A stretch of 11,074 nt of DNA. Source: Chloroflexota bacterium (GTDB lineage: Bacteria; Chloroflexota; UBA6077; CF-72). Position 1 is the stretch's first letter; each line of letters begins with the position of its first letter. Positions 1 through 11,074 of the stretch are shown here, piece by piece. The translations under genes and the position numbers were made by a program. The notes under the pieces are model-generated. The model worked only from the letters and a program-made list of their open reading frames with translations, was not told the DNA's origin and did no database searches. Where the stretch lies: the NCBI GenBank assembly GCA_019247135.1, contig JAFAPL010000984.1, forward strand, positions 1 through 11,074. Direction: 5' to 3'.

Positions 1-116
1 ACGAGCTGGCGCACTTGCCGACCGGACAGGCAGCCGTCTCCATCCGATTCGACCGGCAGCGGCTGGCAGTCGTGCAGGTCGAGCCGCCGCAAATGTTGCT
101 GTATAGAAAGGAATAG
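1..116 (+). CDS. C-terminal end of an unrecognised protein (partial)
   Basis: An open frame enters from the left edge and ends at TAG 114-116. The last 37 residues include ELAHLPTGQAAVSIRF and end in QMLLYRKE. The frame begins at base 3, and the residue composition (mixed hydrophobic and charged, natural codon use) looks coding. The stop lies 4 bases before the GTG of the next gene, so the two are probably in one operon. The tail is too short to assign a family; a faint similarity to ends of TraG/VirD4-like ATPases is only an impression. Confidence 0.5.
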   Translation, partial: ELAHLPTGQAAVSIRFDRQRLAVVQVEPPQMLLYRKE

Positions 117-120
117 GACT

Positions 121-1020
121 GTGTTCCTCTCGACCCTGTGGGCGGCGCTTCGGCGCCGCCCTTTTTCGTTTGGCAGCACGCTCGTGTTGCTGGTCGTGTT
201 CAGCAGTCTGATGGGTGCTGCGGCTCCAGTCGCAGTGCTGCTCTGGATCGGACTCGCGTTGCTCGGGCTGGAGGTCTGGTTCGTGGTGGAGCCGGTCGCA
301 CTTCGAAGACTCGGCGCGCGCAAGCCGAACCAGGCGGAGTGGACGCGGCTCCAGGGGGCGGTTCAAACCTGCGGGTGTCGGCTCCTGATCCTCGATCAGC
401 CGGAGCCGTGGCTTTTCCCCACCCTCCGTCACGTCGTGGTGAGCCGCGGAATGCTGGATTTTGTCGAGGATCGCGGCGTGTTCGGACTTGTCGCGCAAGC
501 GACCGAGCAGCAGCGACTTGCCGCCGTCGTCGGTGTGCCGATCGTCTGGCTCGGCAATCTCGAACTGGTCGCCGCCTATGTCATCAGTTGTTGCGCCGTG
601 CGACTGGGCGAGCTTGTCGCAAGCGTGATGGGTTACAGCCTGGTCTTGCCTGGTCTGCTGTTCCCGAACGCGTTCCGACGCTACGGCGGGCTGTTGCTAG
701 GCACCGTGCTACTCGGACTGATTGGCGCGACGCTGATCACGGACAGTTTGCCGGGTGCCGGTCTGGCGCTGCTCGTCGGTTGGGCTGTCGTCCGTGCAGT
801 TGACGCCGTCCTGGCGTGGGAGTCACGCCGACTGGAGGCAGTCGCTGACGAGGCGACCGTCGCGGCCGGTCTCGGATCGCACCTGCGCGAGGCGCTGGAA
901 ACACTCGGGTGGGCCGACGAGCTGCCCCGAGCGCGCGGCCTGCTGGGAGTACTGCAGCAGCCGGGTGCGTCGGTGGCTGCTCGCCTGGAACGCGTCGAAC
1001 GGCTACTCGCAGGCAGTTGA
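121..1020 (+). CDS. Membrane protein resembling a degenerate M48 (HtpX-like) metallopeptidase
   Basis: The GTG start is preceded by AAAGGA (107-112) at 8-base spacing. The 299-residue protein has a hydrophobic hairpin near residues 20-56, a central soluble or membrane-associated stretch, and another hydrophobic segment near 190-232. Several features match M48 peptidase layout: HVVVSRGMLDFV (104-115) corresponds to the strand and helix before the active site; SRRLEAVADEA (235-245) matches the usual SRxxExxAD segment that holds the third zinc ligand (E239); and SVAARLERVERLL near the C-terminus resembles the THPSVAARIERL tail. Where HExxH should be, residues 124-131 read VAQATEQQ, so both histidines and the catalytic Glu are absent. 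It is therefore probably a non-catalytic pseudopeptidase, or a divergent protein of another family. The next feature is a terminator, so it likely closes the upstream operon. Confidence 0.6.
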   Translation: MFLSTLWAALRRRPFSFGSTLVLLVVFSSLMGAAAPVAVLLWIGLALLGLEVWFVVEPVALRRLGARKPNQAEWTRLQGAVQTCGCRLLILDQPEPWLFPTLRHVVVSRGMLDFVEDRGVFGLVAQATEQQRLAAVVGVPIVWLGNLELVAAYVISCCAVRLGELVASVMGYSLVLPGLLFPNAFRRYGGLLLGTVLLGLIGATLITDSLPGAGLALLVGWAVVRAVDAVLAWESRRLEAVADEATVAAGLGSHLREALETLGWADELPRARGLLGVLQQPGASVAARLERVERLLAGS

Positions 1021-1025
1021 GGATG

Positions 1026-1033
1026 AAGGAGGG
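1026..1033 (+). promoter_or_regulatory. Strong Shine-Dalgarno sequence AAGGAGGG
   Basis: AAGGAGGG lies 6 bases before ATG 1040. It is one of the best ribosome binding sites in the window, yet the frame it serves is interrupted at RNA level by a terminator hairpin about 50 bases later. It decides the start of the doubtful small ORF described next. Confidence 0.5.
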
Positions 1034-1039
1034 ACAACC

Positions 1040-1225
1040 ATGACGCGCGCACCTCCGCGGCTCCAGACGAGCCGCCCGTTTCTCGTCGTCAAAAGAGCCC
1101 CGGTTGGCGCCGGGGCTCTTTCCGTTTGCCGACCTGTAAGGAGCAGATCGGCGTTCCCGTGGGCTTTCGCCCAGAGGAGACACCAGCGTGTCGATTCCCA
1201 CTCTAGCACCGCATGCCGCCGGTGA
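1040..1225 (+). CDS. Doubtful small ORF (61 residues) spanning a terminator
   Basis: This ORF starts at ATG 1040 behind AAGGAGGG and runs to TGA 1223-1225. The peptide (MTRAPPRLQTSRPFLVVKRA...) is basic and resembles no family I know. A 12-bp terminator stem at 1092-1121 sits inside it, and its 3' end overlaps the start of the next gene by 38 bases in another frame. It could be a short leader peptide whose translation affects the hairpin, or simply a chance frame behind a purine-rich stretch. No start-independent evidence of coding (homology, domain) is visible. Confidence 0.25.
   Translation: MTRAPPRLQTSRPFLVVKRAPVGAGALSVCRPVRSRSAFPWAFAQRRHQRVDSHSSTACRR
1092..1124 (+). terminator. Intrinsic terminator after the M48-like gene
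   Basis: AAAGAGCCCCGG (1092-1103) pairs perfectly with CCGGGGCTCTTT (1110-1121), giving a 12-bp stem with a 6-base loop. The A-run on the left and T-run on the right mean it could act in both directions. It probably ends the transcript that includes the M48-like gene. Confidence 0.75.
1128..1173 (+). promoter_or_regulatory. Two hairpins in the leader of the 72-residue protein gene
   Basis: GCCGACCTG (1128-1136) and CAGATCGGC (1144-1152) form a 9-bp stem with one mismatch; its loop is TAAGGAG, an anti-SD complement. A second small stem, TGGGC (1160-1164) with GCCCA (1169-1173), has a TTTC loop and abuts the true SD of the next gene. Together with the terminator just upstream they make a compact structured leader of about 80 bases. 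No known riboswitch class is recognised. Confidence 0.3.
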
Positions 1226-1406
1226 GAACGGTGTTCCCGCGCGGCCGCCGCTCACGCGTTATCAACAGCTCGTAGAGGTGGAGCTGGCGATCTCGAGTCT
1301 AGAGCAGCGGGTCGCGAAGCTCGAGCGCAAGCTCAAGGGCACCGCGGTATCATCGAAAAGGTCGAAGAAGCGGCGCAGATCGCGTCGATCGGCCTGGATG
1401 AACTGA
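1188..1406 (+). CDS. Small coiled-coil protein with a highly basic C-terminus
   Basis: The GTG start follows AGAGGAGA (1173-1180) at 7-base spacing. The 72-residue product has a Pro/Ala-rich N-terminus (1-22), a heptad-like helix at about 24-50 (YQQLVEVELAISSLEQRVAKL), and a tail packed with Lys/Arg (KRSKKRRRSRR). The helix suggests oligomerisation and the tail suggests binding to nucleic acid or an acidic partner; both are inferences from composition. I do not recognise a family. It is bracketed by terminators at 1092-1121 and 1411-1449, so it may be its own short transcription unit. There is no sign that it belongs to the pilus operon downstream. Confidence 0.6.
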   Translation: MSIPTLAPHAAGENGVPARPPLTRYQQLVEVELAISSLEQRVAKLERKLKGTAVSSKRSKKRRRSRRSAWMN

Positions 1407-1410
1407 ACAG

Positions 1411-1449
1411 GAGTGCCGCCCTGGGGACCCGGGGCGGCACTCTTTTTTT
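1411..1449 (+). terminator. Intrinsic terminator after the coiled-coil gene
   Basis: GAGTGCCGCCC (1411-1421) pairs with GGGCGGCACTC (1432-1442) in an 11-bp perfect stem with a 10-base loop, followed by seven T residues (1443-1449). It begins 4 bases after the stop codon of the coiled-coil gene and separates it from the pilus control region. Confidence 0.9.
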
Positions 1450-1475
1450 GTGCCCAGCGACATCGGCGCAGCCGG

Positions 1476-1629
1476 CGTGACGCTTGTGACGTCAGAGTGA
1501 TCACGTAGTGCACTCAAGCTTGTGACGGGTTCGTAACACCGCCCACCCCTGGTCTCCCACGTGACGCTTGTGATCACGGTGTGACCGCCAAGGTCTCTTC
1601 CGCGTGACGCTTGTGACGGCGCGGTGACG
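1476..1629 (+). repeat. Composite GTGAC-motif array 1
   Basis: The basic unit is three GTGAC-type half sites at steps of 9 and then 11 bp. Clear copies begin at 1477/1486/1497, 1561/1570/1581 and 1604/1613/1624; a degenerate copy fits at 1513/1522/1533. The strict octamer CGTGACGC occurs at 1476, 1560 and 1603. Within the units, GTGATCAC appears at 1497-1504 and 1570-1577 and TGACGTCA at 1487-1494, so some half sites also face each other. The last two units are exactly 43 bp apart at all three positions. The pattern suggests a DNA-binding array, not coding DNA. Confidence 0.75.
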
Positions 1630-1635
1630 ACGATC

Positions 1636-1670
1636 AGTTTGTTAAATTTTTGCAAGCGCTCGATTTTTCC
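1636..1670 (+). promoter_or_regulatory. AT-rich island, possible weak promoter
   Basis: This is the most AT-rich stretch of the control region (TTTGTTAAATTTTTGC and then GATTTTT). TTGTTA (1639-1644) and GATTTT (1662-1667) are 17 bp apart, a weak sigma-70-like pair. It lies between the two halves of the repeat region and could also be a bend or protein-binding site. Confidence 0.2.
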
Positions 1671-1675
1671 TCTCA

Positions 1676-1707
1676 CGTGACGCTCCACGTGACGCCTCGC
1701 GTGACGC
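1676..1707 (+). repeat. Triplet of CGTGACGC at 12-bp steps
   Basis: CGTGACGC occurs at 1676-1683, 1688-1695 and 1700-1707, exactly 12 bp apart. The same arrangement, with closely similar spacers (for example CTCCA), closes the second array at 5416-5447. It lies about 210 bases before the cpaB start. Confidence 0.8.
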
Positions 1708-1763
1708 CCCATGTCGAAACTGGACTCACATGCGCAGCAACTTTCACGACTCGCTGAAAAATC

Positions 1764-1816
1764 TTGACATCACCGTTTGGTCAAAATTGACCTCCGCCGC
1801 CCGGATGCGAAAACAT
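1764..1816 (+). promoter_or_regulatory. Possible cpaB promoter with operator-like inverted repeat
   Basis: GGTCAA-AA-TTGACC (1779-1792) is a perfect 6-bp inverted repeat around two bases. Its right arm TTGACC (1787-1792) can serve as a -35 box with AAACAT (1811-1816) as -10 at 18-bp spacing. A second TTGACA lies at 1764-1769 but has no good -10 at normal distance. The match to sigma-70 is modest. If right, the 5' leader before the cpaB start is about 95 bases. Confidence 0.3.
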
Positions 1817-1821
1817 GTTCG
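1808..1821 (+). promoter_or_regulatory. LexA-box-like palindrome
   Basis: CGAAAACATGTTCG has one mismatch to CGAAC-N4-GTTCG, the LexA (DinR) box form known from Bacillus and Actinobacteria. It overlaps the proposed -10 box. One such near match in 11 kb is not far from chance, so this is only a candidate. Confidence 0.25.
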
Positions 1822-1917
1822 CGTCAGGTTGCCGAGCGGCTCACCTGGAGTGCCCGCCGCCGGGGGCATGACACCGTCACGCACCATCTCATCCCAGCCT
1901 GAAGGGGGAGGCCCGAC

Positions 1918-2619
1918 TTGGCTGTCACGGCTCTGAGTCCGGCACGTGCCATTCGCCGTCCGAGGCGGGCGGATCCGCGGGCCCTCATTGGTGTGTTTCT
2001 CACGCTCGCCGCACTGGCCGGCTCCGTCGCTTTCTGGGTGACCGCGAGCGAAGCACGGCCGGTGGTGGTCGCTACGCGAGATCTGCCGGCCGGCGCAACT
2101 CTCCAGAGCTCAGACCTGACGGTTGCGTACGTGCGTATGGACGACGCGCTGTATCGGGCCGCGACACCGTCTGAGATGCTGGACTCCCTCGTTGGACGCC
2201 AGCTGGCGGAGCCCATGCACGCGCAACAGGTCCTGGCGCGCGCCCAACTGGAGGACCACTCCGGGCTCGGCCGCGATCAGGTCGCCATCACGATTCCGGC
2301 GCATCCGGACACCGCCGTGGATGGTCGCATCCGCGCCGGCGACCAGGTCCAGATCCTGGTGACGGTGACGGATAAGAACGTCAGCGAAGCGCACACGCGC
2401 CTGGTGCTCGCGCGTGCCCAGGTGTTCGAAGTTGGCCGCGAACAAGGCTTCGGCGCCTCGAGCACAACGAGTGCCGAGAGCGCCGACGCAAACGGGCACG
2501 GCAGCATCAGCTCCATCACGCTGGCGCTGTCGCCCGAGGACGCCCGAAGCCTGGCCGAAGCACGTCGCAGCGGCGATCTGGACGTGCTGCTCCTGCCACC
2601 GGAGTCTGACAACCCGTGA
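1918..2619 (+). CDS. cpaB: CpaB/RcpC-type Flp pilus assembly protein (SAF domain)
   Basis: The TTG start is supported by GGGGGAGG (1904-1911) at 6-base spacing. The 233-residue protein has a basic N-terminus, one membrane helix near 22-44, and then a SAF domain: VVVATRDLPAGATLQSSDL (49-67) is the typical family opening. A second part (about 120-180), with DQVAITIPAHPDTAVDGRI followed by GDQVQILVTV, matches the RcpC/CpaB C-terminal domain. Length is at the short end of the family. CpaB proteins are anchored in the membrane with the SAF domain outside and take part in pilus assembly, in diderms together with the secretin. No secretin gene is seen here, so in this organism it probably works at the outer face of the membrane or in the wall. 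It is the first gene of the operon behind a long control region. Confidence 0.88.
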   Translation: MAVTALSPARAIRRPRRADPRALIGVFLTLAALAGSVAFWVTASEARPVVVATRDLPAGATLQSSDLTVAYVRMDDALYRAATPSEMLDSLVGRQLAEPMHAQQVLARAQLEDHSGLGRDQVAITIPAHPDTAVDGRIRAGDQVQILVTVTDKNVSEAHTRLVLARAQVFEVGREQGFGASSTTSAESADANGHGSISSITLALSPEDARSLAEARRSGDLDVLLLPPESDNP

Positions 2620-2643
2620 GCGCACGCTCCGTTCGGCCACGGC

Positions 2644-3993
2644 GTGTTTAGCCCACCTCGGACGCGGCTGGCACTCGCGCTCGGCGACCAGGAGCTGGAG
2701 TGGCGCATCAGGCCGACGCTCGAGCTGGATGAGCAGCTCGAGATCACCGCGGACTGCCTGTCGGCTGACCAGCTCACGGCGGTAGTGGAGTCGCGTCAGG
2801 TGGACCTGCTGCTGGTCGCCTGGGGGCTGCACCGGCTGGGCGAGCCCCTGCTGGAGCAACTCACGCGAAGCGGCCTGCCGATGCTCCTGCTGGTGCCGGA
2901 CGCGGCCGACGAGCGATGGAGCGATCGCCGCTTTCAGGTGCTGGCGCAGGATGCGGAGGCGAACGCCGTGCACGAGGCACTGCTGCGCGCCAAGCGCGGC
3001 CACCTGGTCCGACCGAAGCCGCGTCCGAGTCGGGAGCCGGTCGAGCTGAAGCCGGACGATCGTGGCGTGGATCCGGAACCGCAAGTGCGCGTGTTGGCCA
3101 TCGCCGGCGGAGCCGGCAGTCCGGGTCGCACGACGGTCGCCATTTCGCTGGCGGCGGCGCTCGGGTCGGTCGCACCCACCGTCCTTGTAGAAGCCGACCT
3201 GACCGCACCCGCGTTCGCCGCTTACATCGAGCGCGATCCGAGCCGCAACATCTGCACGCTGGCGCACGCCGTGCGCGAGAGTCCGCACGCCTGGACCCAG
3301 GCGATCGCCGACGAGCTGCAAGTGCTCAATCGCCACGTACCGCATGCGGCCGTCCTGTGTGGATTGCCGAAGCGCGAAATGCGATCCAGCGTCTCGCCCG
3401 GGCTCATCCAGCGACTGGTAGCGGAGCTCGCGTCTCGCTTTCGCTTCGTCATCCTCGATGTCGGAGAGCAGTTGCTCGGTACCGACGCCGCGGTGATGGC
3501 TCACCGAGCTGCGCTGGGTGTGGCGCAGCACGTCCTCATGGTGTCGCGCTCGGACATGGTGGGACTCTGGCACACCCGCGTGGCGCTGAAGCAGCTGGAG
3601 CACCAGCTGAGCATCGAGCCCGCGCACGTCAGCCTGATCGTGAATCGACATGATTCACGGCATCACCATTCCCGGTCGGAGATCGAGTGGCATCTGGGCG
3701 TGCCGATCGCGGCGGTGATCCCGTTCGACCATGCGGCGACTGAACGCGCGATTACCGACCAGAGCCCACTCGTGCTCGACGGATCCAGCCGAGCAGCCAG
3801 GGCAATCCTGGACCTTGCCGAGCGCCTGCATGCAGGACACATCCATCTGCCGCGGACCGACTCGCGTGCGGTTCGACCGTGGTGGCGGCGGTGGCCTGCG
3901 CGACAGCCGACCAGCGCCGCGGCTTCATCTTCTGAATCTGATCTCGAGCCGCGGCTGGCGGCGAGTGGCCGGCGCGAAGGTCGGGCGTGGTAG
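2644..3993 (+). CDS. cpaE: CpaE/TadZ-like ATPase with receiver-like N-domain
   Basis: This 449-residue protein has a receiver-like alpha/beta domain at about 6-115 (VDLLLVAWG, LPMLLLVP strands), a Pro/Arg linker, and a ParA/MinD-type ATPase domain from about 147 to 395. The P-loop GAGSPGRTT (156-164) has Arg in place of the invariant Lys and lacks the MinD signature Lys. RFVILDVGE (267-275) is the Walker B strand. The Ser/Arg-rich tail after 400 looks disordered. CpaE/TadZ proteins position the pilus machine at the membrane or pole. It overlaps cpaF by 7 bases, so the two are translationally coupled. GTG 2644 is the only upstream start in frame and has no clear SD; see the finding on the cpaB-cpaE junction. 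Family assignment is firm; ATP hydrolysis is uncertain. Confidence 0.82.
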   Translation: MFSPPRTRLALALGDQELEWRIRPTLELDEQLEITADCLSADQLTAVVESRQVDLLLVAWGLHRLGEPLLEQLTRSGLPMLLLVPDAADERWSDRRFQVLAQDAEANAVHEALLRAKRGHLVRPKPRPSREPVELKPDDRGVDPEPQVRVLAIAGGAGSPGRTTVAISLAAALGSVAPTVLVEADLTAPAFAAYIERDPSRNICTLAHAVRESPHAWTQAIADELQVLNRHVPHAAVLCGLPKREMRSSVSPGLIQRLVAELASRFRFVILDVGEQLLGTDAAVMAHRAALGVAQHVLMVSRSDMVGLWHTRVALKQLEHQLSIEPAHVSLIVNRHDSRHHHSRSEIEWHLGVPIAAVIPFDHAATERAITDQSPLVLDGSSRAARAILDLAERLHAGHIHLPRTDSRAVRPWWRRWPARQPTSAAASSSESDLEPRLAASGRREGRAW

Positions 3994-5315
3994 CCGCGCA
4001 GGCGGGCGAACTGGAAGCACTTCGGCCAATCGCGCCAACTGACCGTGGCGCGGAACGCATCATCCGCGAGCGGGTCGTGCAGGCGGTCAGTCGCTACCTG
4101 GGTGACGGCCGGCTGCTCAGTCCGAACGCCGAGGACGAGCAGCGCGTGCGCGCGATCATCGAGGACGAAGTCACCGCCTTCGAACGCCGCGCCGTCACCA
4201 CGAACTCGCCGCTGTTGCTGGACCCGGAGCGCCTGAAACAGCGCCTGTTCGACTCGGTCTTCGGTATGGGCGTCCTCCAGCCACTGATGGACGATCCACG
4301 CGTCGAAGAGATCATCGTCAACGGGCCGATGCGCGTTTTCGCGATCCGCGACGGACACAAAGAACAGGTGGCGATCCGATTCGAATCCGACGACGAGCTG
4401 CGCCAGCTGATCAAACGCGTGATCAGCTCCGCCGGCCGGCGACTGGATGACGCCGCTCCGATGGTCGACGTGCGGCTGCGCGACGGCTCGCGCCTGAATG
4501 CCGTGATCACGCCCGCCTCGACGCGCTGGACGTCGGTGACCATTCGGCGATTCCTGCTCCGCGCGCAGTCGCTCCAGCAGCTTGTCGAACTGGACGCGCT
4601 GAGCGACAGCGCCGCCGAATTCCTCGAGGCGGCCGTCCAGGCGGGTGTGAACATCCTGGTCAGTGGCCAGACCGGCGCGGGCAAGACGACGCTGCTGAAT
4701 GCACTCGGTGCATCCATCGCGACACTCGAGGAACGGGTTGTCACGGTTGAGGAAGTGCCCGAGCTCCAGCTCGATCGACTCTTGCCCGATTGCGTCGCAC
4801 TGCAGGTGCGCGGAAAAAACGTGGAGGGCGTGGGCGAGATCAGTATTCGAGATCTGGTGCGCAATGCGCTGCGGATGCGGCCGACGCGCATCATCGTCGG
4901 CGAGGTGCGCGGTGCCGAGGCGCTCGACATGCTGCTGGCGATGAACACCGGTCACGAAGGCTCGCTCACGACCATTCACGGCAACTCGCCGCGCGACGCC
5001 CTGGATCGTCTGGCGACGCTCGCCAGCATGGCCGGCGAACGACTTTCGAATGAGGATCTCACGCGGATGGTCGCTCGCACCATAGAGCTGGTGGTCCAGT
5101 TGCGGAGCAACGTGCGGACCGGTCAGCGACGGGTTGGAAGCATTTTCGAGGTGACCGGTGTCGAGGCCGGCGTGATCAGTGGGCATGACATCTGGAGCCT
5201 GGATCAAGGTCAGCTGGTCTGGACCGGTCGTCCGCCGCGGTGTCTGGAAAAGATGGCCGCGCGCGGCATCGACTACGCGCCTCCGGTCGCGCGTAGCGGG
5301 GATACGGTCGCGTGA
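3987..5315 (+). CDS. cpaF: CpaF/TadA secretion-type ATPase
   Basis: GTG 3987 follows GAAGG (3976-3980) at 6-base spacing and overlaps the cpaE stop. The 442-residue protein carries all landmarks of the GspE/VirB11 superfamily: an N-terminal helical domain to about residue 90, the family segment GVLQPLMDDPRVEEIIVNGP (95-114), Walker A GQTGAGKTT (227-235), an Asp-box-like VTVEEVPEL (252-260), Walker B RIIVGEVRG (301-309), and the His box TGHEGSLTTIH (321-331). It is the cytoplasmic hexameric motor that drives Flp pilin assembly through the TadB/TadC platform. Length is normal for the family. A 169-base non-coding insert with repeats follows, which is unusual between cpaF and tadB. Confidence 0.95.
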   Translation: MVAAQAGELEALRPIAPTDRGAERIIRERVVQAVSRYLGDGRLLSPNAEDEQRVRAIIEDEVTAFERRAVTTNSPLLLDPERLKQRLFDSVFGMGVLQPLMDDPRVEEIIVNGPMRVFAIRDGHKEQVAIRFESDDELRQLIKRVISSAGRRLDDAAPMVDVRLRDGSRLNAVITPASTRWTSVTIRRFLLRAQSLQQLVELDALSDSAAEFLEAAVQAGVNILVSGQTGAGKTTLLNALGASIATLEERVVTVEEVPELQLDRLLPDCVALQVRGKNVEGVGEISIRDLVRNALRMRPTRIIVGEVRGAEALDMLLAMNTGHEGSLTTIHGNSPRDALDRLATLASMAGERLSNEDLTRMVARTIELVVQLRSNVRTGQRRVGSIFEVTGVEAGVISGHDIWSLDQGQLVWTGRPPRCLEKMAARGIDYAPPVARSGDTVA

Positions 5316-5321
5316 GACTCC

Positions 5322-5343
5322 AAAAGCGTCACGTGACGCTTTT
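5322..5343 (+). repeat. Perfect 22-bp palindrome after cpaF
   Basis: AAAAGCGTCAC (5322-5332) is followed directly by its reverse complement GTGACGCTTTT (5333-5343). It begins 6 bases after the cpaF stop and contains the first CGTGACGC of the array. As RNA it could form a 9-bp stem with an ACGT loop ending in TTTT, a possible weak bidirectional terminator; as DNA it would be a symmetric operator. Confidence 0.7.
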
Positions 5344-5447
5344 CCCACTCGGCGTGACGCCTTGCCCCACCCACGTGACGCTTTTTCGTCTGCACGTGAC
5401 GCTTTTTCCTTCCCACGTGACGCCCTACGTGACGCTCCACGTGACGC
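5332..5447 (+). repeat. CGTGACGC array 2 with 21-bp and 12-bp phasing
   Basis: CGTGACGC occurs at 5332, 5353, 5374, 5395, 5416, 5428 and 5440. The steps are 21, 21, 21, 21, 12 and 12 bp. The spacers differ in sequence (several are TTTTTC-rich), so spacing, not spacer sequence, is conserved. Twenty-one base pairs is two helical turns, which would place bound proteins on one face. The last three copies match the layout of the triplet at 1676-1707. Confidence 0.88.
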
Positions 5448-5469
5448 CTGGTGTGCATGATGCAGTGCG

Positions 5470-5477
5470 AAAGGAGA
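5470..5477 (+). promoter_or_regulatory. Shine-Dalgarno of tadB pointing to a CTG start
   Basis: AAAGGAGA is 7 bases upstream of CTG 5485. The next conventional start, TTG 5500, is 22 bases away, too far. An in-frame TGA at 5458-5460 excludes starts farther upstream, and no ATG, GTG or TTG lies between. This decides for CTG, with TTG as the fallback. Confidence 0.5.
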
Positions 5478-5484
5478 CGTTCAT

Positions 5485-6345
5485 CTGATCCCACTCGTCT
5501 TGTCGGTTGCCCTGGCGGCCGGCGTGTACTTCACGTATGACGGACTGGCGCGTCCCCGCGATCGACTGATCCGAGCGCCGCGTCTGGACGCCGTGCGCGA
5601 GTTTCTGACGCGCGCGGGTCTGCGCGAGGTGACGCCGCGTGAATTCGTCGTCTTTTCGCTCGGGGCTGGGCTGTTCTCGGCCCTGGTGAGCCAGCTGTTG
5701 CTAGGGTGGCCGATCGTGACCGGCCTGGCAGGCGGCGCTGGTGCGCTCGCGCCGTACGTGTATTACGTGCGCCGCCACGACCTGCGGCGGCGGGCGGTCG
5801 AGGAAGCGCTCATCGAGGCGATCGAGCAGCTGCGGGATGGCATTCGCGGCGGGCTGTCAGTGCAGGAGTCGCTCGCCGGACTCGCGCGGACCGGGCCCGA
5901 GGCCTTGAGGCAAGAGTTCGCCACGCTCACCCGCGAGGCGCGCCTGCTCGGCTTTGATGGCGCGCTCACCGCGATGCGCGACCGGCTGGCTGATCCGGTC
6001 TTCGACGTGGTCGCCGCGGCGCTCCTGGTCAACGACCGCCTGGGTGGTCGACAGGTCTCGCAGGTGCTGGATCGGCTGGCGGAGGCAACCCGCGCCCAAC
6101 TGCGCATCCAGCAGGAGGTCCGGGCGCAGCAGGGGCGCACGGTGTTGTCGGCGCGCATCGTTGCCGCCGCCCCGCTCGTCGCGCTGCTCGGTTTGCGCGC
6201 AACCAACCCGCGCTATCTCAGTATTTTCGACAGCTTCGCGGGCCAACTGGTGTTGATTGGCTGCGCCGCCAGCATCGGCCTGGGATACATGGCGATGCTG
6301 TATCTGACGCGTCTGCCCGGCCAGCGACGAGTGTTGGTCCGCTGA
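5485..6345 (+). CDS. tadB: TadB inner-membrane platform protein (T2SSF family)
   Basis: The product is about 286 residues from CTG 5485 (281 from TTG 5500). It has a hydrophobic N-terminus (IPLVLSVALAAGVYF), a membrane pair near 54-94, then the cytoplasmic T2SSF four-helix domain (about 105-215) with the typical segments EALIEAIEQLRDGIRGGLS and AALLVNDRLGGRQVSQVLDRL, and C-terminal helices near 220-275. TadB and TadC form the inner-membrane platform that couples the CpaF motor to pilin. The gene starts after the repeat insert and is followed by tadC with a single base between stop and ATG, so the two are coupled. Assignment to TadB over TadC rests on gene order and length. Confidence 0.88.
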   Translation: MIPLVLSVALAAGVYFTYDGLARPRDRLIRAPRLDAVREFLTRAGLREVTPREFVVFSLGAGLFSALVSQLLLGWPIVTGLAGGAGALAPYVYYVRRHDLRRRAVEEALIEAIEQLRDGIRGGLSVQESLAGLARTGPEALRQEFATLTREARLLGFDGALTAMRDRLADPVFDVVAAALLVNDRLGGRQVSQVLDRLAEATRAQLRIQQEVRAQQGRTVLSARIVAAAPLVALLGLRATNPRYLSIFDSFAGQLVLIGCAASIGLGYMAMLYLTRLPGQRRVLVR

Positions 6346-6346
6346 T

Positions 6347-7351
6347 ATGCCGAGTCTCGACGTGCTGATGCTGGTCGTGTCGCTGGAGCCGCGTGGACTC
6401 GACGCGCGAGTGATCGGACTTCCGCTGCTGTTGGGCGCGGGCCTGTATTTCATCCTGACCGCGCAGCCCATCGGCCGGCCGAAACCCGATCTGGGTGATC
6501 GGCTGCGGCTCCTCGACGTGGACGAACGCATCCGTCTGGCGGAGATGGACCAGCATCGGGCACGTCCGTTGTTCGCATCGCGGCTGCTCGAGAACATGCT
6601 GCGACCGGTGATCGATGACCTGGGTCGAATCGGACGCGCAGTGTCGTTGCGGCTTGGCGTCGCCGGCGGACAACGGCTCGAACGGCGTTTGCACGTTGCG
6701 CGACCGGGCGTGGACGTGTCCCAGTTCATGGGTGAAAAACTGGTCAGCGCGGCCATCGGCGGGGTCACATTCCCCTTGATGAACGGTCTGCGCATCACGC
6801 CGTTCGGTGCGTGGCCGGTGTGGCTGTGGCTCGCCGCGGCTGGGGTTGGTTTCCTCATGCCTGATTGGGACCTCGATCGACGGCACGCCCGTCGACAAGG
6901 CATGGTGTTGATGGAGCTGCCAACCATCCTCGATATGCTGACGCTCGCCACGTCCGCGGGCATGGCGCTGGAACAAGCCATCGAGGAGGTCGCACGCCAG
7001 AGCGAAGGTGTGGTTGCGCGCGAGCTGCGACTGGTGGTCCGAGAGCTCGCGCTCGGCCAGCGGGCGACGCTCCAGGTTGCGCTGGAAGCGATGGCGGAGC
7101 GCCTAGGTATGCCGGAGGTGGAGCACGTTCTTGGACGATTAGCGGCGACGTACGAGCAAGGCTTGCCGCTGGCGCAGGCGCTCGCCGCACACGCGCAGGC
7201 GCTGCGCGAACGCCAGCGACTGCACATTGTGGAGGAGGGAGGCAAAGCGACCGTCAGGATGTTGTTGCCGGTCGCGCTGTTGATCTTGCCAGCGCTGTTC
7301 GTTGTGGTGCTGGTACCCGCCGCCGTCGAGCTCACGCGGCTCGGAGGCTAG
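6347..7351 (+). CDS. tadC: TadC inner-membrane platform protein (T2SSF family)
   Basis: ATG 6347 lies one base after the tadB stop. The 334-residue protein has a hydrophobic N-terminal segment (about 22-40), a charged stretch, a central membrane pair near 125-175 (IGGVTFPLMNGL, WLWLAAAGVGFLMP), the T2SSF helical domain at about 185-300 (LPTILDMLTLATSAGMALEQ; LGMPEVEHVLGRLAATYEQG) and a strong C-terminal helix (LLPVALLILPALFVVVLVP). It pairs with TadB as the second platform subunit. The stop TAG is 6 bases before the alternative GTG start of the pilin gene, so translation is tightly linked. Confidence 0.88.
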   Translation: MPSLDVLMLVVSLEPRGLDARVIGLPLLLGAGLYFILTAQPIGRPKPDLGDRLRLLDVDERIRLAEMDQHRARPLFASRLLENMLRPVIDDLGRIGRAVSLRLGVAGGQRLERRLHVARPGVDVSQFMGEKLVSAAIGGVTFPLMNGLRITPFGAWPVWLWLAAAGVGFLMPDWDLDRRHARRQGMVLMELPTILDMLTLATSAGMALEQAIEEVARQSEGVVARELRLVVRELALGQRATLQVALEAMAERLGMPEVEHVLGRLAATYEQGLPLAQALAAHAQALRERQRLHIVEEGGKATVRMLLPVALLILPALFVVVLVPAAVELTRLGG

Positions 7352-7359
7352 TCCCGAGT

Positions 7360-7367
7360 GGAGGAGG
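7360..7367 (+). promoter_or_regulatory. Strong Shine-Dalgarno GGAGGAGG before flp
   Basis: GGAGGAGG ends 11 bases before ATG 7379 and is a doubled SD core. It suggests that the pilin is made at a high rate, as expected for the major subunit, and favours ATG 7379 over the GTG at 7358, which has only CGGAGG (7342-7347) 10 bases upstream. Confidence 0.5.
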
Positions 7368-7378
7368 AACCAGAATCG

Positions 7379-7627
7379 ATGTTGGAGCATGTGGAGCTGC
7401 AAGTGGTGCGCCTGAGCAACTGGATGGTGGAGTTGCGTGAGCAGGTGGGCGAATGGTGCCGCGGGTCGGAGCGGGCGCAGTCGACGGTCGAATACGCGCT
7501 GGTTGGAGCTCTGGTGGTCATCGCCGCGGCGGGCGCACTGACGATTCTCGGCGGCCAGGTCAACAACGTCTTTGGCAGCATCAGCAGTACGTTGAAGACC
7601 GCGGCGACCTCGTCGAGTGGCCACTGA
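7379..7627 (+). CDS. flp: Flp-type major pilin (type IVc prepilin)
   Basis: From ATG 7379 the product is 82 residues (89 if GTG 7358 is used). RAQSTVEYALVGALVVIAAA is the Flp hallmark: cleavage by prepilin peptidase is expected between A33 and Q34, leaving Glu at +5 and Tyr at +6, followed by the hydrophobic assembly helix and a short tail (LTILGGQVNNVFGSISSTL) typical of Flp. The mature protein would be about 49 residues. The leader of 33 residues, with an amphipathic helix (VELQVVRLSNWMVELREQV), is longer than usual for Flp. It is the only clear Flp pilin in the window and lies directly behind tadC. Confidence 0.9.
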   Translation: MLEHVELQVVRLSNWMVELREQVGEWCRGSERAQSTVEYALVGALVVIAAAGALTILGGQVNNVFGSISSTLKTAATSSSGH

Positions 7628-7652
7628 CAGCGACCAGTAGCGCGAGATTCCG

Positions 7653-8051
7653 ATGCGGCCTCATCGCGGCGGCGGCCAGTCCCTGGTCGAGTCCGCCCTG
7701 GTCTTTCCGATGCTGATCCTGCTCTCGCTCGGCGTGATTCAGGTGATGCTGTACGCGCACGCGCGCGACGTATTGTCGAGCGCCGCCCAGGAAGGTGCGC
7801 GGCTGGCAGCAGAGGACGGCCGCGGCGCGGACGAAGGCATCAGTCGAGCGCAGGACCTGGTCAGCGCGGGACTGGGAACCAGTATCGAGCCGGTGCTGGT
7901 TCACATCAGCGTCACTCCAGACCTGGTGGACCTCCGCATCGATTCGGAGCTGCGACCGATCCTGCCACTACCCGTGGCTGGCGGGCTGCCCCTGCACGCT
8001 GAAGCCCGCGTTGCCGCCGAACGTTTTCGACCGGCCGGAGGCTCCGCATGA
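7653..8051 (+). CDS. tadE: TadE-like minor pilin / pseudopilin
   Basis: ATG 7653 lies 25 bases after flp with only a weak SD. The 132-residue protein starts MRPHRGGGQSLVESALVFPM: a short basic leader, a likely cleavage after G8, Glu at +5, and a membrane helix to about residue 34. It then has the TadE signature ARDVLSSAAQEGARLAAEDG and a small extracytoplasmic beta-rich domain (VLVHISVTPDLVDLRIDSEL). TadE pseudopilins are processed by the same peptidase as Flp and are needed for pilus biogenesis. Its stop overlaps the next start (ATGA 8048-8051), so it is coupled to the NERD-TadE gene. Confidence 0.85.
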   Translation: MRPHRGGGQSLVESALVFPMLILLSLGVIQVMLYAHARDVLSSAAQEGARLAAEDGRGADEGISRAQDLVSAGLGTSIEPVLVHISVTPDLVDLRIDSELRPILPLPVAGGLPLHAEARVAAERFRPAGGSA

Positions 8052-9454
8052 CCGATCGTGTGTACGAATGCCGTGGCGCGCCTGTCGATCTGGACCGAGC
8101 AGTCGTCCGCCCACCGGATCGCCGGCAGCGCGAGAAGCCGCGCGGTTTTCTGCCGACTGCGTTGATCGCATTGGTGCTGATACCGCTGGCGGGTGCAGCC
8201 GATAAACAGGCTGGCCCGCTCGTCGCGGCGGCGAGCGCGACCGGTGTGCTGCTGCTTTATCGCGTCGCGCACGGGCGGGCTCCATGGGGCTGGATCAGCC
8301 TGCTCAGCGGAGTCATTGGACTGATTGCTCCACGCAGCCAGTTCGGATCTCTCGGTACGGGCGTGTTCGTCGTGACGATCCTGTCCTTCGTGTTCTGGCT
8401 CGCAAACCACCGGCCGAACGCCGCGCGCAGTCTCAAGCACCCGCGACCCGGCTCGCCCGAGCGCAAAGCGCAGCTTCTGATGGGCTTCAGCGGCGAACGG
8501 CACGTGGGTTCGGTGCTCGCGCACGAGCTACCGCAGGAGTACGCGGTGCTCAACGGTCTGAAGCTTCCGCGCGGCGCCGGCGACATCGATCATCTGGTCG
8601 TTGGTCCCACCGGCGTTTTCGTCCTGGAGACGAAAACGATGGTCGGCCACGTCGTCTGCGCAGCCGACGGGACGTGGAGCCGGACGCGTTTCGGCCGCGC
8701 CGGCGCGCGCTACCCGGCCTACATCGGCGACCCTGCCGCGCAAGCGCAACGCAACATCATCGCGCTGCGCAACTACTTACGGCAGAGACTCCCCGCGTTG
8801 TTCGAACCTGGCCGCGGCCTGTGGATTGAAGGTCTGCTGGTGTTTCCGCACCCGCGTACCGAGCTGGAGACGGAGCACAGCCGCATCCAGGCGCTGCGGC
8901 TGCAAGACACCAGCCGGCACATCGCCAGCCATACACCCCGCCGCCCGCTCCAGCCACACGAGGTGGACGCGGTGGTCGCAGTCTTGCTGGCCGAGACCGA
9001 GCAGCGTCCACAGCCAATCGCGCAGAGCGCGCAGGCGTTCATCGAGATCGCGATCGCGCTTCCAATTGTTCTCGGGCTGCTGTTCGGAACGGTGGCGCTG
9101 AGTCGTGTCGTGCAAGCACAGACCGCGGTGGTTGCGCTCGCCCACGAGGTCGCGCGGGCGGGTGCGCTGGCGAATTCTCCGGCCGATGCACGTGCGCGCA
9201 TGCAGCAGCGATTTCTCGATGTTGCACCCGGCCTTGGCCTGGATGCACGCCAGATCGAGCTCCAGTCTGATGTGTCCCAGTTCGCCCGCGCGAACGGCCG
9301 TGTTCGCGCAAGCGCGCGTTACACAGTGGATCTGGGAAATCTGCCGTTCGTTGACGCGCTGCCGCAACCCACGGTAGTTGCGGAGCATGTAGAGGTGGTC
9401 GACCCGTTTCGCGCCGGTATTTCGATGCCGCTGGAGACCGGCCGATTCCGATGA
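8048..9454 (+). CDS. Fusion: four-helix membrane domain + NERD nuclease-like domain + TadE pseudopilin
   Basis: One uninterrupted frame of 468 residues. Residues 1-30 are basic. Four membrane helices lie near 34-51, 56-72, 79-94 and 103-119. A NERD (PD-D/ExK-like) domain follows at about 145-270 with FSGERHVG (E150), GDIDHLVVGPTGVFVLETK (D181, E194, K196) and DPAAQ (Q232); all expected catalytic positions are present. Residues 325-468 form a TadE-like unit: SAQAFIEIAIALPIVLG, a helix, then VALAHEVARAGALAN and a soluble domain. Positive-inside topology puts NERD in the cytoplasm and the TadE tail outside. A prepilin cleavage between A328 and Q329 (Glu333 at +5) would separate the two parts. 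Overlaps of 4 bases with both neighbours show it belongs to the operon. NERD function is poorly known; nuclease activity is inferred from the fold. Confidence 0.85.
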   Translation: MTDRVYECRGAPVDLDRAVVRPPDRRQREKPRGFLPTALIALVLIPLAGAADKQAGPLVAAASATGVLLLYRVAHGRAPWGWISLLSGVIGLIAPRSQFGSLGTGVFVVTILSFVFWLANHRPNAARSLKHPRPGSPERKAQLLMGFSGERHVGSVLAHELPQEYAVLNGLKLPRGAGDIDHLVVGPTGVFVLETKTMVGHVVCAADGTWSRTRFGRAGARYPAYIGDPAAQAQRNIIALRNYLRQRLPALFEPGRGLWIEGLLVFPHPRTELETEHSRIQALRLQDTSRHIASHTPRRPLQPHEVDAVVAVLLAETEQRPQPIAQSAQAFIEIAIALPIVLGLLFGTVALSRVVQAQTAVVALAHEVARAGALANSPADARARMQQRFLDVAPGLGLDARQIELQSDVSQFARANGRVRASARYTVDLGNLPFVDALPQPTVVAEHVEVVDPFRAGISMPLETGRFR

Positions 9455-9906
9455 GCTGGAGGGGTGCCGAGCGCGCGCAAGCGCTGATCTGGCTGACCGT
9501 CGTGGTGCCACTGTTCATCTCGATGGCCGGTCTGGCAATTGACGGCGCAATCCTCTTGGCGGGCCGCCGCGAGCTCCAGAGTGTCGCGGACGGAGCCGCA
9601 CGCGCCGGTGCAACCCGAGTGGACCTCGCCCGACTACGCGACACCGACGGCGCCGACGTCGAGCTGGATGCGGCCGCCGCCCGCGGCGCCACACAGTCGT
9701 ATCTGGACAGTGAGCTTGCCGGCGAGGTGACCTGGGACGCGCGCCCCCACGCGCGGATCGATGTCCAGTCACGCCGCGTGCGCGTGACGTTGCAAGGCAC
9801 GTTGCGTACCGCGTTCTTGCGAATTGCGAATATCAACGAGGTGCCCGTGGAGGCCAGTGCATTCGCCGACGTGCGTTTCGGTATTCGCACAGGAAGTGGC
9901 AGCTGA
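9451..9906 (+). CDS. TadG/TadE-like membrane-anchored pilus protein
   Basis: ATG 9451 overlaps the stop of the fusion gene (ATGA). The 151-residue protein starts MSWRGAERAQALIWLTVVVP, has one membrane helix to about residue 38, and then AIDGAILLAGRRELQSVADGAARAGATRV, the typical TadG N-terminal (Tad domain) pattern of DG-x-RRELQ-x-AD-AA-A-A. A short extracytoplasmic domain follows (RIDVQSRRVRVTLQGTLRTAF). Full-length TadG proteins are much longer and carry a von Willebrand-like domain, absent here. Position +5 after the A-Q site is Trp instead of Glu. It is probably a minor component or an anchor of the pilus. Confidence 0.75.
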   Translation: MSWRGAERAQALIWLTVVVPLFISMAGLAIDGAILLAGRRELQSVADGAARAGATRVDLARLRDTDGADVELDAAAARGATQSYLDSELAGEVTWDARPHARIDVQSRRVRVTLQGTLRTAFLRIANINEVPVEASAFADVRFGIRTGSGS

Positions 9907-9914
9907 GGAGTCCC

Positions 9915-11074
9915 ATGCCCGCACGTACCGCTGATCCGGCTTGCCGTTCGCGTTCTCAGGTGCGCGCTGGCAGGCGCGGCTGGACCTCACTCGTTGGATT
10001 GATTGTGCTGATGGCGCTCTCGGGCGGCGCACTTCGGGTGTTTGGTGGCCTGCCGCGCATGCCCGAGGGCACACCCAGCGTCGACGCGATGCATGCGCTC
10101 TTGGCTGGTAGCACGTTGCCGCTCCAACCCATCGTCAGCCTCCTGGTCGGAATCGCGTGGCTGCTCTGGCTGTGGATCCTTGTGTCGCTCGTGCTGCAGC
10201 TCGTGCTGCACGCTATTGAATCTCTGGCTCGCGGCGCTGGCTGGCTTCGTTCGGCGCGAGGCTTGACGGATCGTTTTACTGTCCCGATCGTACGCCGCAC
10301 CGTGGCCGCCGCGTTCGCTGTTCAGATTCTCAGTCGAAGTGTCCCGGTCGCCGCCGCCGAGCCGCTCTCGCCTGCGGACGTCAGTGTTGCCGCTCCGCAC
10401 GCGGCGGCCCAACGGCTTGCCGTTGTGGCTCCCATGATCTCGGAACCCAGCGCGCCCACCTCGGCGCTGTATCGCGTCCGAGCTGGCGACACGCTGTGGA
10501 CGATCGCCGAACACGCGTACGGCTCGGGCACCGAATACCGACGCGTGGTCGCGGCAAACCTGGGCCGCCGCATGCCTGACGGCCAGACGTTTACCGCGCG
10601 CGGCGTCATCGCGCCCGGGTGGGAACTGGTCCTGCCTCCGATCACCGCTGATGTCGAACAGGCCGACGGAGAAGCTTGGTACACGGTCCAGCCAGGTGAC
10701 ACGCTCTGTGGCATTGCGGCACGTGTTCTCAAGGACGAGAACAAGTGGTCGGTTCTGCTGGAATTGAATGAAGGCGCGACCAGTCCGGATGGTGCTCACG
10801 TTCTGGCAAATCCGAATTTGATATGGCCCGGCCTACGACTCCGCCTACCCGATCCGCAAACCCCGCGGCCGCTCGAAGCCACTCCGCCGGACTCGGTGAC
10901 CAGCGACGAAGCCGATCCCGCGGAACCATCGCAGGATGCCGATGCCGACCCGGCAGACCGGAGCGCAGGGTCGCCGCTGCTGGCCCACGCTCCGCAACCA
11001 TCGCCCGACACGACGGTTGCTCTCCGCTCCTCGGCCGAAGAACCGGGAGTTGCAGACCCCGATCTCACCGCGGC
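9915..11074 (+). CDS. Membrane protein with two LysM domains (partial, runs off the window)
   Basis: ATG 9915 follows GAGGAG (9905-9910), 8 bases after the previous stop, and the frame stays open to the end (386 codons). There are hydrophobic segments near residues 25-45 and 73-98, and a third near 128-148 ending in VPVAAAEP. LysM 1 (about 186-241) begins YRVRAGDTLWTIAEHAYG and LysM 2 (about 256-312) begins YTVQPGDTLCGIAARVL; both end in a PGxxLxLP-type strand. A Pro/Asp/Ala-rich linker follows. LysM domains bind peptidoglycan, so the protein may anchor the pilus machine to the wall. Large LysM proteins at Tad loci of Actinobacteria and Chloroflexi often carry a C-terminal BTAD domain; whether this one does cannot be seen here. 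Confidence 0.8.
   Translation, partial: MPARTADPACRSRSQVRAGRRGWTSLVGLIVLMALSGGALRVFGGLPRMPEGTPSVDAMHALLAGSTLPLQPIVSLLVGIAWLLWLWILVSLVLQLVLHAIESLARGAGWLRSARGLTDRFTVPIVRRTVAAAFAVQILSRSVPVAAAEPLSPADVSVAAPHAAAQRLAVVAPMISEPSAPTSALYRVRAGDTLWTIAEHAYGSGTEYRRVVAANLGRRMPDGQTFTARGVIAPGWELVLPPITADVEQADGEAWYTVQPGDTLCGIAARVLKDENKWSVLLELNEGATSPDGAHVLANPNLIWPGLRLRLPDPQTPRPLEATPPDSVTSDEADPAEPSQDADADPADRSAGSPLLAHAPQPSPDTTVALRSSAEEPGVADPDLTA

Follow-up and report, generated by a model that had tools for sequence, protein, structure and literature searches.

The closest described relatives of the gene treated here are the TadE/TadF (CpaJ/CpaK) pseudopilins of Tad pili and the NERD-domain proteins (PF08378). The gene occupies positions 8048 to 9454 of an 11,074-nucleotide stretch of DNA from a Chloroflexota bacterium (contig JAFAPL010000984.1, positions 1 to 11,074, forward strand; this whole stretch is called the window below), and it joins four membrane helices, a NERD nuclease-like domain and a TadE-type pseudopilin in a single frame. 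Known TadE/TadF leaders are short. The fusion resembles these pseudopilins in its place in the operon, its TadE Pfam domain, its A/G-xxxxE site and its hydrophobic pilin helix; on the other hand, it carries 328 residues before the site, with four helices and a nuclease-like domain, in place of a short leader. With NERD proteins such as SmdA and the NERD-like ends of PglW and MAD6, it shares a Pfam match above the cut-off, a weak similarity of its NERD domain to PglW and MAD6, and membrane anchoring of the kind seen in SmdA; the difference is that five catalytic residues are invariant in the fusion family. A pilin part is not known to us from any of these NERD proteins. Since the transformation of Micrococcus luteus was shown to require Tad pili, the way in which such pili deal with DNA has been an open question. 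According to the accessible parts of the literature, TadV cuts Flp prepilins after a glycine at position -1, and TadE/TadF/TadG-like proteins have been proposed to prime or tip the pilus (PMC4322843, PMC12075869, PMC13170226).

The fusion gene and its parts are located as follows.

8048..9454, + strand: fusion gene, four membrane helices, NERD and TadE pseudopilin, 468 residues (frame, Pfam, structure model)
8147..8410, + strand: four membrane helices, residues 34-121 (hydropathy, charges, structure model)
8468..8947, + strand: NERD nuclease-like domain, residues 141-300 (Pfam, structure models, fold comparison)
9029..9034, + strand: predicted prepilin-peptidase cleavage site, cut between A328 and Q329, with E333 at +5 (conservation of -1 and +5)
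9032..9451, + strand: TadE-type pseudopilin part, residues 329-468 (Pfam TadE; orthologues without NERD)

A sequence-only reading of the window had described one continuous frame of four helices, NERD and TadE with a complete catalytic set and 4-base overlaps with both neighbours, and this description holds in each respect. The frame opens with ATG, encodes 468 residues and sits between tadE and tadG of the Tad operon, overlapping them through ATGA at 8048-8051 and 9451-9454, respectively; among random sequences of equal base composition, a fully open frame of this length occurred in 1 of 2000. Pfam NERD matches residues 146-267 (E 2.3e-20, 73.6 bits against a cut-off of 22.1), and Pfam TadE matches residues 329-370 (E 8.6e-06, 26.2 bits against a cut-off of 22.9). 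In the predicted structure, which has a mean predicted local distance difference test score (pLDDT) of 87, four helices precede NERD (34-51, 56-73, 80-93 and 100-120), the NERD elements span residues 137-294, and the pilin helix spans residues 324-373. The residues E150, D181, E194, K196 and Q232 are all found in the NERD part and make up the set E, D, ExK and Q, which we take, as the sequence-only reading did, to be the NERD / PD-(D/E)xK motif; in the model, E150 lies within a helix and D181 within a strand, and the strand that follows ends at E194. Modelled alone, the NERD part adopts a PD-(D/E)xK nuclease fold, as judged by the models and by fold comparison, which disposes of one outcome that the sequence-only reading had named as refuting it. 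A search for a sequence relative of solved structure gave two matches only (E 0.83 and 0.89), neither of them credible. The predicted topology places the N-terminus and NERD in the cytoplasm and the body of the pseudopilin outside.

The fusion is genuine and represents a conserved variant form of Tad pseudopilin. In a search of 5.8 billion proteins, with scoring limited to the 7994 candidates sharing most words, 177 matches to the fusion were obtained at an E value of 1e-3 or better. Among the matches listed (120 of the 177), both Pfam domains are present in 119, and in the remaining homologue, P0084, the pseudopilin region is aligned without a TadE entry; all seven taxon-bearing names among these listed matches are Chloroflexota or Chloroflexi. 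Read as DNA, the same fusion occurs in four separately assembled loci (L001, L002, L003 and L142), each time inside a Tad operon. The fusion is thus a conserved Chloroflexota family and not an assembly artefact, as the sequence-only reading had argued from the overlaps, and the co-occurrence with Tad genes for which it had proposed a search is found. Similarly, a one-genome-per-species scan gave, among the best 80 of 215 matches, three long ones, all from Chloroflexota, and 77 NERD-only loci. Within their class, 3 of the 29 genomes carry the fusion (G001, G002 and G003, the window-type genomes); across the phylum, 9 of 400 genomes match at an E value of 1e-20, and the fusion is present in four of these nine. 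One of the genomes, G231, holds a divergent form and belongs to another class, where the fusion occurs in 1 of 41 genomes. Searching with the G231-type fusion returned 8 proteins including itself, 7 of them with both domains. One member of this divergent subfamily, P0129 (320 residues), has NERD and ends before the pseudopilin part.

The conservation alignment held 120 sequences, namely 119 homologues and the window protein, the identical copy P0002 being left out. E150, D181, E194, K196 and Q232 occur without exception in all 120, and the prepilin site has Ala at -1 in 119 sequences and Gly in one, with Glu at +5 in all 120; the cleavage motif between NERD and TadE, A/G at -1 followed by xxxxE, is therefore strictly conserved. 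Of the 8 proteins of the divergent subfamily, 7 have the full catalytic set (the eighth lacks that end), and Gly stands at -1 in all seven that reach the prepilin site. Mean pairwise identity (1500 sampled pairs of sequences over 440 residues) is 69% for NERD, 71% for the pilin helix, 61% for the remaining pseudopilin and 48% for the four-helix part. No description of a NERD-TadE fusion was found in a literature search of titles, abstract openings and term counts that covered few subscription journals and no preprints; within the same scope, no paper joined 'NERD domain' with 'Tad pilus', or 'type IV secretion' with 'Tad pilus' and 'Chloroflexi'. The claim that no Tad component of this architecture has been described thus stands for that literature but not for databases, where the architecture is already recorded because some JGI entries have been labelled automatically as, for example, 'Nuclease-related domain/TadE-like protein'.

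The origin of the fusion may be traced by comparison with loci that lack NERD. Twelve related loci in seven genomes (L111-L114 and L143-L150) have the same operon and a second pseudopilin, and NERD is absent from them rather than encoded by a separate neighbouring gene, so that the split into two genes that the sequence-only reading had named as a refutation is not seen in the DNA read. Their pseudopilin genes are mostly short, about 140-180 residues (the gene starts of L145 and L150 are ambiguous), and among the ten with a readable site, -1 is Gly in nine and Ala in one. NERD being absent while the site is kept, the 328-residue part has therefore replaced the prepilin leader. In the major pilin, position -1 is occupied by Ala in three loci (the window, L002 and L003); L001 and all the other loci (12 of 12) have Gly there. 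The peptidase of this lineage therefore plausibly accepts Ala, and Peptidase_A24, the prepilin peptidase family, is present in 8 of 8 genomes. A supported branch of the NERD tree (100/95) has both fusion subfamilies on the same side (26 rows, with 3 second-subfamily rows dropped as short or misread and 81 of 85 NERD-only loci usable). In the tree of the pseudopilin half, in which P0129 and L150 were not included, the G231 type groups among rows without NERD. A single clade is neither shown nor rejected by the TadABC tree, in which broken genes are represented by their best piece only (approximately unbiased test, p-AU 0.20). In the second Tad locus of G231 (L143:14593-15444), this pseudopilin has an N-terminal extension of another kind, about 150 residues long and matching no Pfam family. 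Some Chloroflexota genomes have two or three such Tad loci (L112 and L113 in G029; L145-L147 in G041; L148-L150 in G356).

Based on the results presented above, a membrane-anchored PD-(D/E)xK-type nuclease, consisting of the four helices and NERD, would stand where a TadE/TadF-type pseudopilin normally has its leader. The precursor would insert in the membrane with NERD on the cytoplasmic side, and a prepilin peptidase would most likely cut at A328/Q329. The released pseudopilin would join the priming/tip complex of the Tad pilus with TadE and TadG, and the nuclease part, anchored by its four helices, would remain membrane-bound next to the platform and motor. Since the prepilin-peptidase motif is strictly conserved, the nuclease may be a cleaved leader that is retained in the membrane. 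The idea that the enzyme is tethered to the pilus base is to be refined accordingly: it may be cut off from the pilin and yet stay in the membrane on its four helices. This half of the mechanism (insertion, cleavage and priming) draws on sequence evidence, and the half that concerns DNA draws on gene linkage and shared repeats.

The genes around the fusion bear on the second half, and they are listed here, all on the + strand.

3..113, +: probable C-terminal tail of a gene for a coupling-protein/HerA-like ATPase of a type IV secretion system (T4SS); 57% identity to the end of L001:185-1483 over 28 of its 37 residues (E 1.2e-9)
121..1020, +: membrane protein beside the coupling-protein gene (tblastn, 41% to L001:1650-2528)
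1918..2619, +: cpaB/rcpC (Pfam RcpC, E 7.5e-17; SAF)
2644..3993, +: tadZ/cpaE-like (Pfam CbiA, E 5e-8)
3987..5315, +: tadA/cpaF ATPase (Pfam T2SSE, E 3.6e-49)
5500..6345, +: tadB (Pfam T2SSF, E 3.9e-9)
6347..7351, +: tadC (Pfam T2SSF, E 3.4e-15)
7358..7627, +: flp major pilin, site SERA/QSTVEY (cut after A), Ala at -1 (Pfam Flp_Fap, E 0.0016, below its cut-off; motif)
7653..8051, +: tadE pseudopilin, site GGG/QSLVE (cut after GGG) (Pfam TadE, E 9.4e-13)
9451..9906, +: tadG-like (Pfam Tad, E 2e-8)
9915..11072, +: start of a LysM protein (Pfam LysM; complete relative L001:11890-15366)

The location inside a Tad operon is hence borne out by CpaB, TadZ-like, TadA, TadB, TadC, Flp (below its cut-off), TadE and TadG. 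L001:185-1483, the relative of the 3-113 tail, has TrwB_AAD_bind and DUF87 matches; the membrane protein at 121-1020 has no Pfam or NCBIfam match, and relatives of both genes were found only on the L001 contig among the 17 loci compared. L001:11890-15366 combines LysM, FtsK_SpoIIIE and BTAD matches in one protein (Trans_reg_C is below its cut-off); of such a protein, the window covers the LysM start alone.

In L001/L124, the Tad operon is followed by genes for this LysM-FtsK-BTAD protein, PEGA/PD40, TrbL/VirB6, NlpC/P60, a VirB2-type pilin and PrgI, by a gene that weakly matches TraC, and by genes for VirB4 (TraG P-loop) and a HerA-like ATPase. Most of this T4SS-like set, in the same order, lies on the Tad contig in G016, G029:C75, G019, G004 and G231:C30 (some small genes being undetected), so that the Tad operon and the cluster share a contig in six genomes, with NlpC/P60 where it was detected. 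The set was not found within 20 kb beyond the second G029 copy, nor within some 10 kb beyond the G302 and G356 loci, and near the G041 loci the PEGA gene alone was found. VirB4 of at least 60% identity is present in 8 of the 29 class genomes, namely in 7 of 7 with this pseudopilin half versus 1 of 22 others (Fisher p 5.1e-6, with cut-offs set after the data had been seen, the pseudopilin half being a match that reaches about residue 453 at an E value of 3e-11 or better, the G004 match covering 377-453 only at a contig edge, and the remoter VirB4 matches of G012 and G028, at 26-43%, left aside). G006 is the exception: it has VirB4 without the pseudopilin half, and its contig ends next to the T4SS genes; G041, G302 and G356 were left out of this genome-wide search. 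Relaxases of PF03432 and PF08751, the two families sought, were found in 0 of 6 genomes, which may be incomplete. Beyond the T4SS genes of G001, where the contig nears its end, L124:7524-9629 encodes a reverse transcriptase/group II intron maturase that also matches HNH.

Two described systems resemble this cluster. The Patescibacteria T4SS has a similar VirB4, PrgI/VirB3, VirB6 and VirB2-like set; the difference is that here the set shares a contig with the Tad operon and, where detected, NlpC/P60. The accessible text on that system describes it as mostly without a relaxase (PMC12102498). In Sulfolobales, according to the accessible parts of two papers, the Ups type IV pilus works with the T4SS-like DNA importer Ced without a known relaxase (PMC11868833, PMC9905601). 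The present genes likewise combine a type IV pilus partner with VirB4/VirB6/VirB2-like proteins and neither of the two relaxase families, whereas Ups/Ced is archaeal with another pilus class; the likeness noted here is one of protein types.

A further link between the Tad operon and DNA uptake is suggested by GTGACGC repeats, of which the window holds two arrays.

1476..1707, + strand: GTGACGC direct repeats, 6 copies, upstream of the cpaB operon
5326..5447, + strand: GTGACGC array between tadA and tadB, seven + copies at steps of 21, 21, 21, 21, 12 and 12 (regular array 5333-5447), and one further copy on the - strand

Similar arrays, with steps of 20-22, 40-42 and 12, stand at the tadA-tadB place in L001, L002 and L003. 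The count of CGTGACGC is 14, 15, 20 and 15 in the window, L001, L002 and L003 loci, respectively, where base composition predicts 0.8-1.6; each of 12 further loci that lack the window-type fusion has 0-3. Genome-wide, GTGACGC-N14-GTGACGC occurs 24, 19 and 19 times in G001, G002 and G003, and in the comparison genomes G016, G029 and G231 it does not occur; a reversed control pattern occurs in none of these genomes. The pairs in the three genomes correspond to about 35 sites, whose arrays mostly run in 21-nt steps and finish with 12-nt steps. In all three (3/3), tadB directly follows a repeat site. The comEC operon follows repeats in G001 and G003; in G002, where comEC itself is on another contig, a repeat site at a contig end precedes a gene that by eye resembles the one preceding comEC, which has no Pfam match and is not shown to be comEA. 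With this by-eye case counted, tadB and comEC are the sole targets seen in three of three genomes. Repeats also precede a comM/YifB-like gene in G001 and G003; in G001 they further stand before a PEGA/TrbL segment, and in G002 before TrbL (60% identity, E 1e-85). The arrays are thus a candidate operator of a regulon that would include tadB and comEC. Direct repeats suit a BTAD/SARP-type activator, and the BTAD protein encoded in the same locus may presumably be the activator that acts at them. The Micrococcus luteus system is similar in that transformation there depends on a Flp/Tad pilus and the tad genes here share repeats with comEC and a comM-like gene; the difference is that a nuclease is unmentioned in the main text of that paper.

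On this basis, the Tad pilus, the VirB4/VirB6/VirB2-like cluster and ComEC/ComM might form one uptake or exchange programme under shared repeat operators. Retraction of the pilus, or a VirB4/VirB6-like channel, would carry DNA to the membrane, ComEC would take it in, and NERD might nick, trim or destroy one form of the DNA entering or leaving at the pilus base. It seems, if only just, probable that the fusion is a DNA-processing enzyme of a competence or DNA-uptake/exchange machine, with its activity and its cleavage both presumed. The suggestion of DNA uptake or transfer made in the sequence-only reading therefore gains circumstantial support from the linked cluster and from the repeats at comEC and comM, and it is weakened by the same repeats at lgt and rplS.

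Several observations speak against this assignment. The repeats precede lgt (G002, G003) and rplS (G001, G003) as often as comM and TrbL, and our confidence in DNA uptake or exchange is slightly reduced because housekeeping genes are marked to this extent. In addition, ddl, prmA, DUF2851, VWA/BatA, WD40-LuxR and a GAF histidine kinase are targets once each, and about a dozen of the roughly 35 sites are without a confident gene; the repeat regulon is broader than competence. The T4SS genes of G002 and G003 are on separate short contigs, the fusion itself is on a T4SS-bearing contig in G001 only, and the T4SS linkage extends to loci without NERD. Although comEC and dprA are each present in 8 of 8 genomes, they also occur in 10 and 11, respectively, of 14 control genomes. 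As for the first half of the mechanism, with Ala instead of Gly at -1, processing could be slow or fail to occur, and the loop 94-102, predicted to lie outside, carries a slight positive charge. The function of NERD is hardly studied, and the accessible text on SmdA shows that a role in cell division is possible (PMC9040797).

ComEC itself was compared in the same context. In G001, G002 and G003 (L218, L219 and L220), it has 541-566 residues, 167-178 of them after the Competence domain, and no DUF4131 or Lactamase_B match; in five other genomes it has 775-854 residues, 255-357 of them after that domain. All five of these have DUF4131, Lactamase_B matches only in G016 and G029, and HxHxDH, by reading, is kept only in G016. 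The metal motif looks degenerate in unfused G029, G019 and G041 and in fused G231. The idea that NERD replaces the nuclease domain of ComEC was rejected and stays a lead: the degenerate motif also occurs in unfused genomes, so the link is not specific, and this too counts against an uptake role.

Other explanations of the locus can be weighed on the same evidence. An artefact of sequencing or annotation that joins two genes could be read from P0129, in which NERD stands without the pseudopilin part, and from internal GTG codons near residues 306-309. It is contradicted by the same fusion in L001, L002, L003 and L142 and in the 119 of 120 homologues listed, which rules out artefact or split genes; the chance of it is practically nil. 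An internal start that would give a free pseudopilin was likewise rejected, the start codons near 306-309 not being conserved across the five loci checked. If the Tad pilus and the T4SS-like cluster instead formed an outward machine that exports DNA or protein to neighbours, NERD could make the transfer strand in place of a relaxase. VirB4, TrbL/VirB6, the VirB2-type pilin, PrgI, NlpC/P60 and coupling-type ATPases near Tad are consistent with this, as are the missing PF03432/PF08751 relaxases (0/6 genomes) and the mostly relaxase-less monoderm T4SS of Patescibacteria, as far as the accessible text describes it (PMC12102498). However, the T4SS genes are also linked where NERD is absent, the relaxase search covered two families only in genomes that may be incomplete, and the arrays common to comEC and comM point to import; we regard export as unlikely.

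A guard of the envelope, in which NERD would exclude phage or other foreign DNA at the portal by cutting it as it enters at the Tad pilus, is distinctly unlikely, considering the broad conservation of fusion and operon among homologues, which is unexpected for a patchy defence gene. The repeat arrays common to tad, comEC and the comM-like gene also tell against it, as do the NERD-only loci: in 0 of 77 was a match to the window's Tad proteins found at an E value of 1e-4, many of the flanks being short. The weak similarity of NERD to PglW and MAD6 nevertheless keeps a small chance for defence. Finally, NERD might have no catalytic function and serve as a scaffold on which the pseudopilin or platform proteins dock, in the way apparently seen for SmdA in cell division. 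According to the accessible text on SmdA, that protein consists of one helix and a partial NERD, binds division proteins and needs its conserved NERD residues, and no nuclease role is reported there (PMC9040797). The same text states, however, that SmdA lacks several of the NERD residues that are otherwise best conserved (PMC9040797), whereas the five catalytic residues are invariant here in 120 of 120 sequences, and a scaffold is quite improbable.

The DNA-processing reading can be extended to a self-dividing precursor, from which the peptidase would yield both a pilus-priming pseudopilin and a membrane nuclease. The nuclease would stand at the heart of a chromosomal machine of Tad pilus, T4SS and ComEC/ComM, a bacterial counterpart of the archaeal Ups/Ced system, and would cut DNA as a relaxase does in conjugation. 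We put this forward tentatively and consider it doubtful as a whole. If it were true, pilus priming and nuclease delivery would be made one-to-one, a nuclease would be directly tied to the Tad pilus, and a concrete system would be available for how Tad pili handle DNA. The fusion suggests that an entire enzyme may serve as a prepilin leader, and it offers a setting in which NERD, a domain on which little work exists, can be tested. The repeats, for their part, point to a regulon related to competence and marked by a recognisable repeat operator, in Chloroflexota that are represented here by metagenome-assembled genomes.

Among the other NERD genes encountered, viral contigs held a single weak NERD-only locus. 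In L036, a record titled Vibrio cholerae strain 35D, the NERD gene falls inside an Arthrobacter clade, which suggests a contaminating contig.

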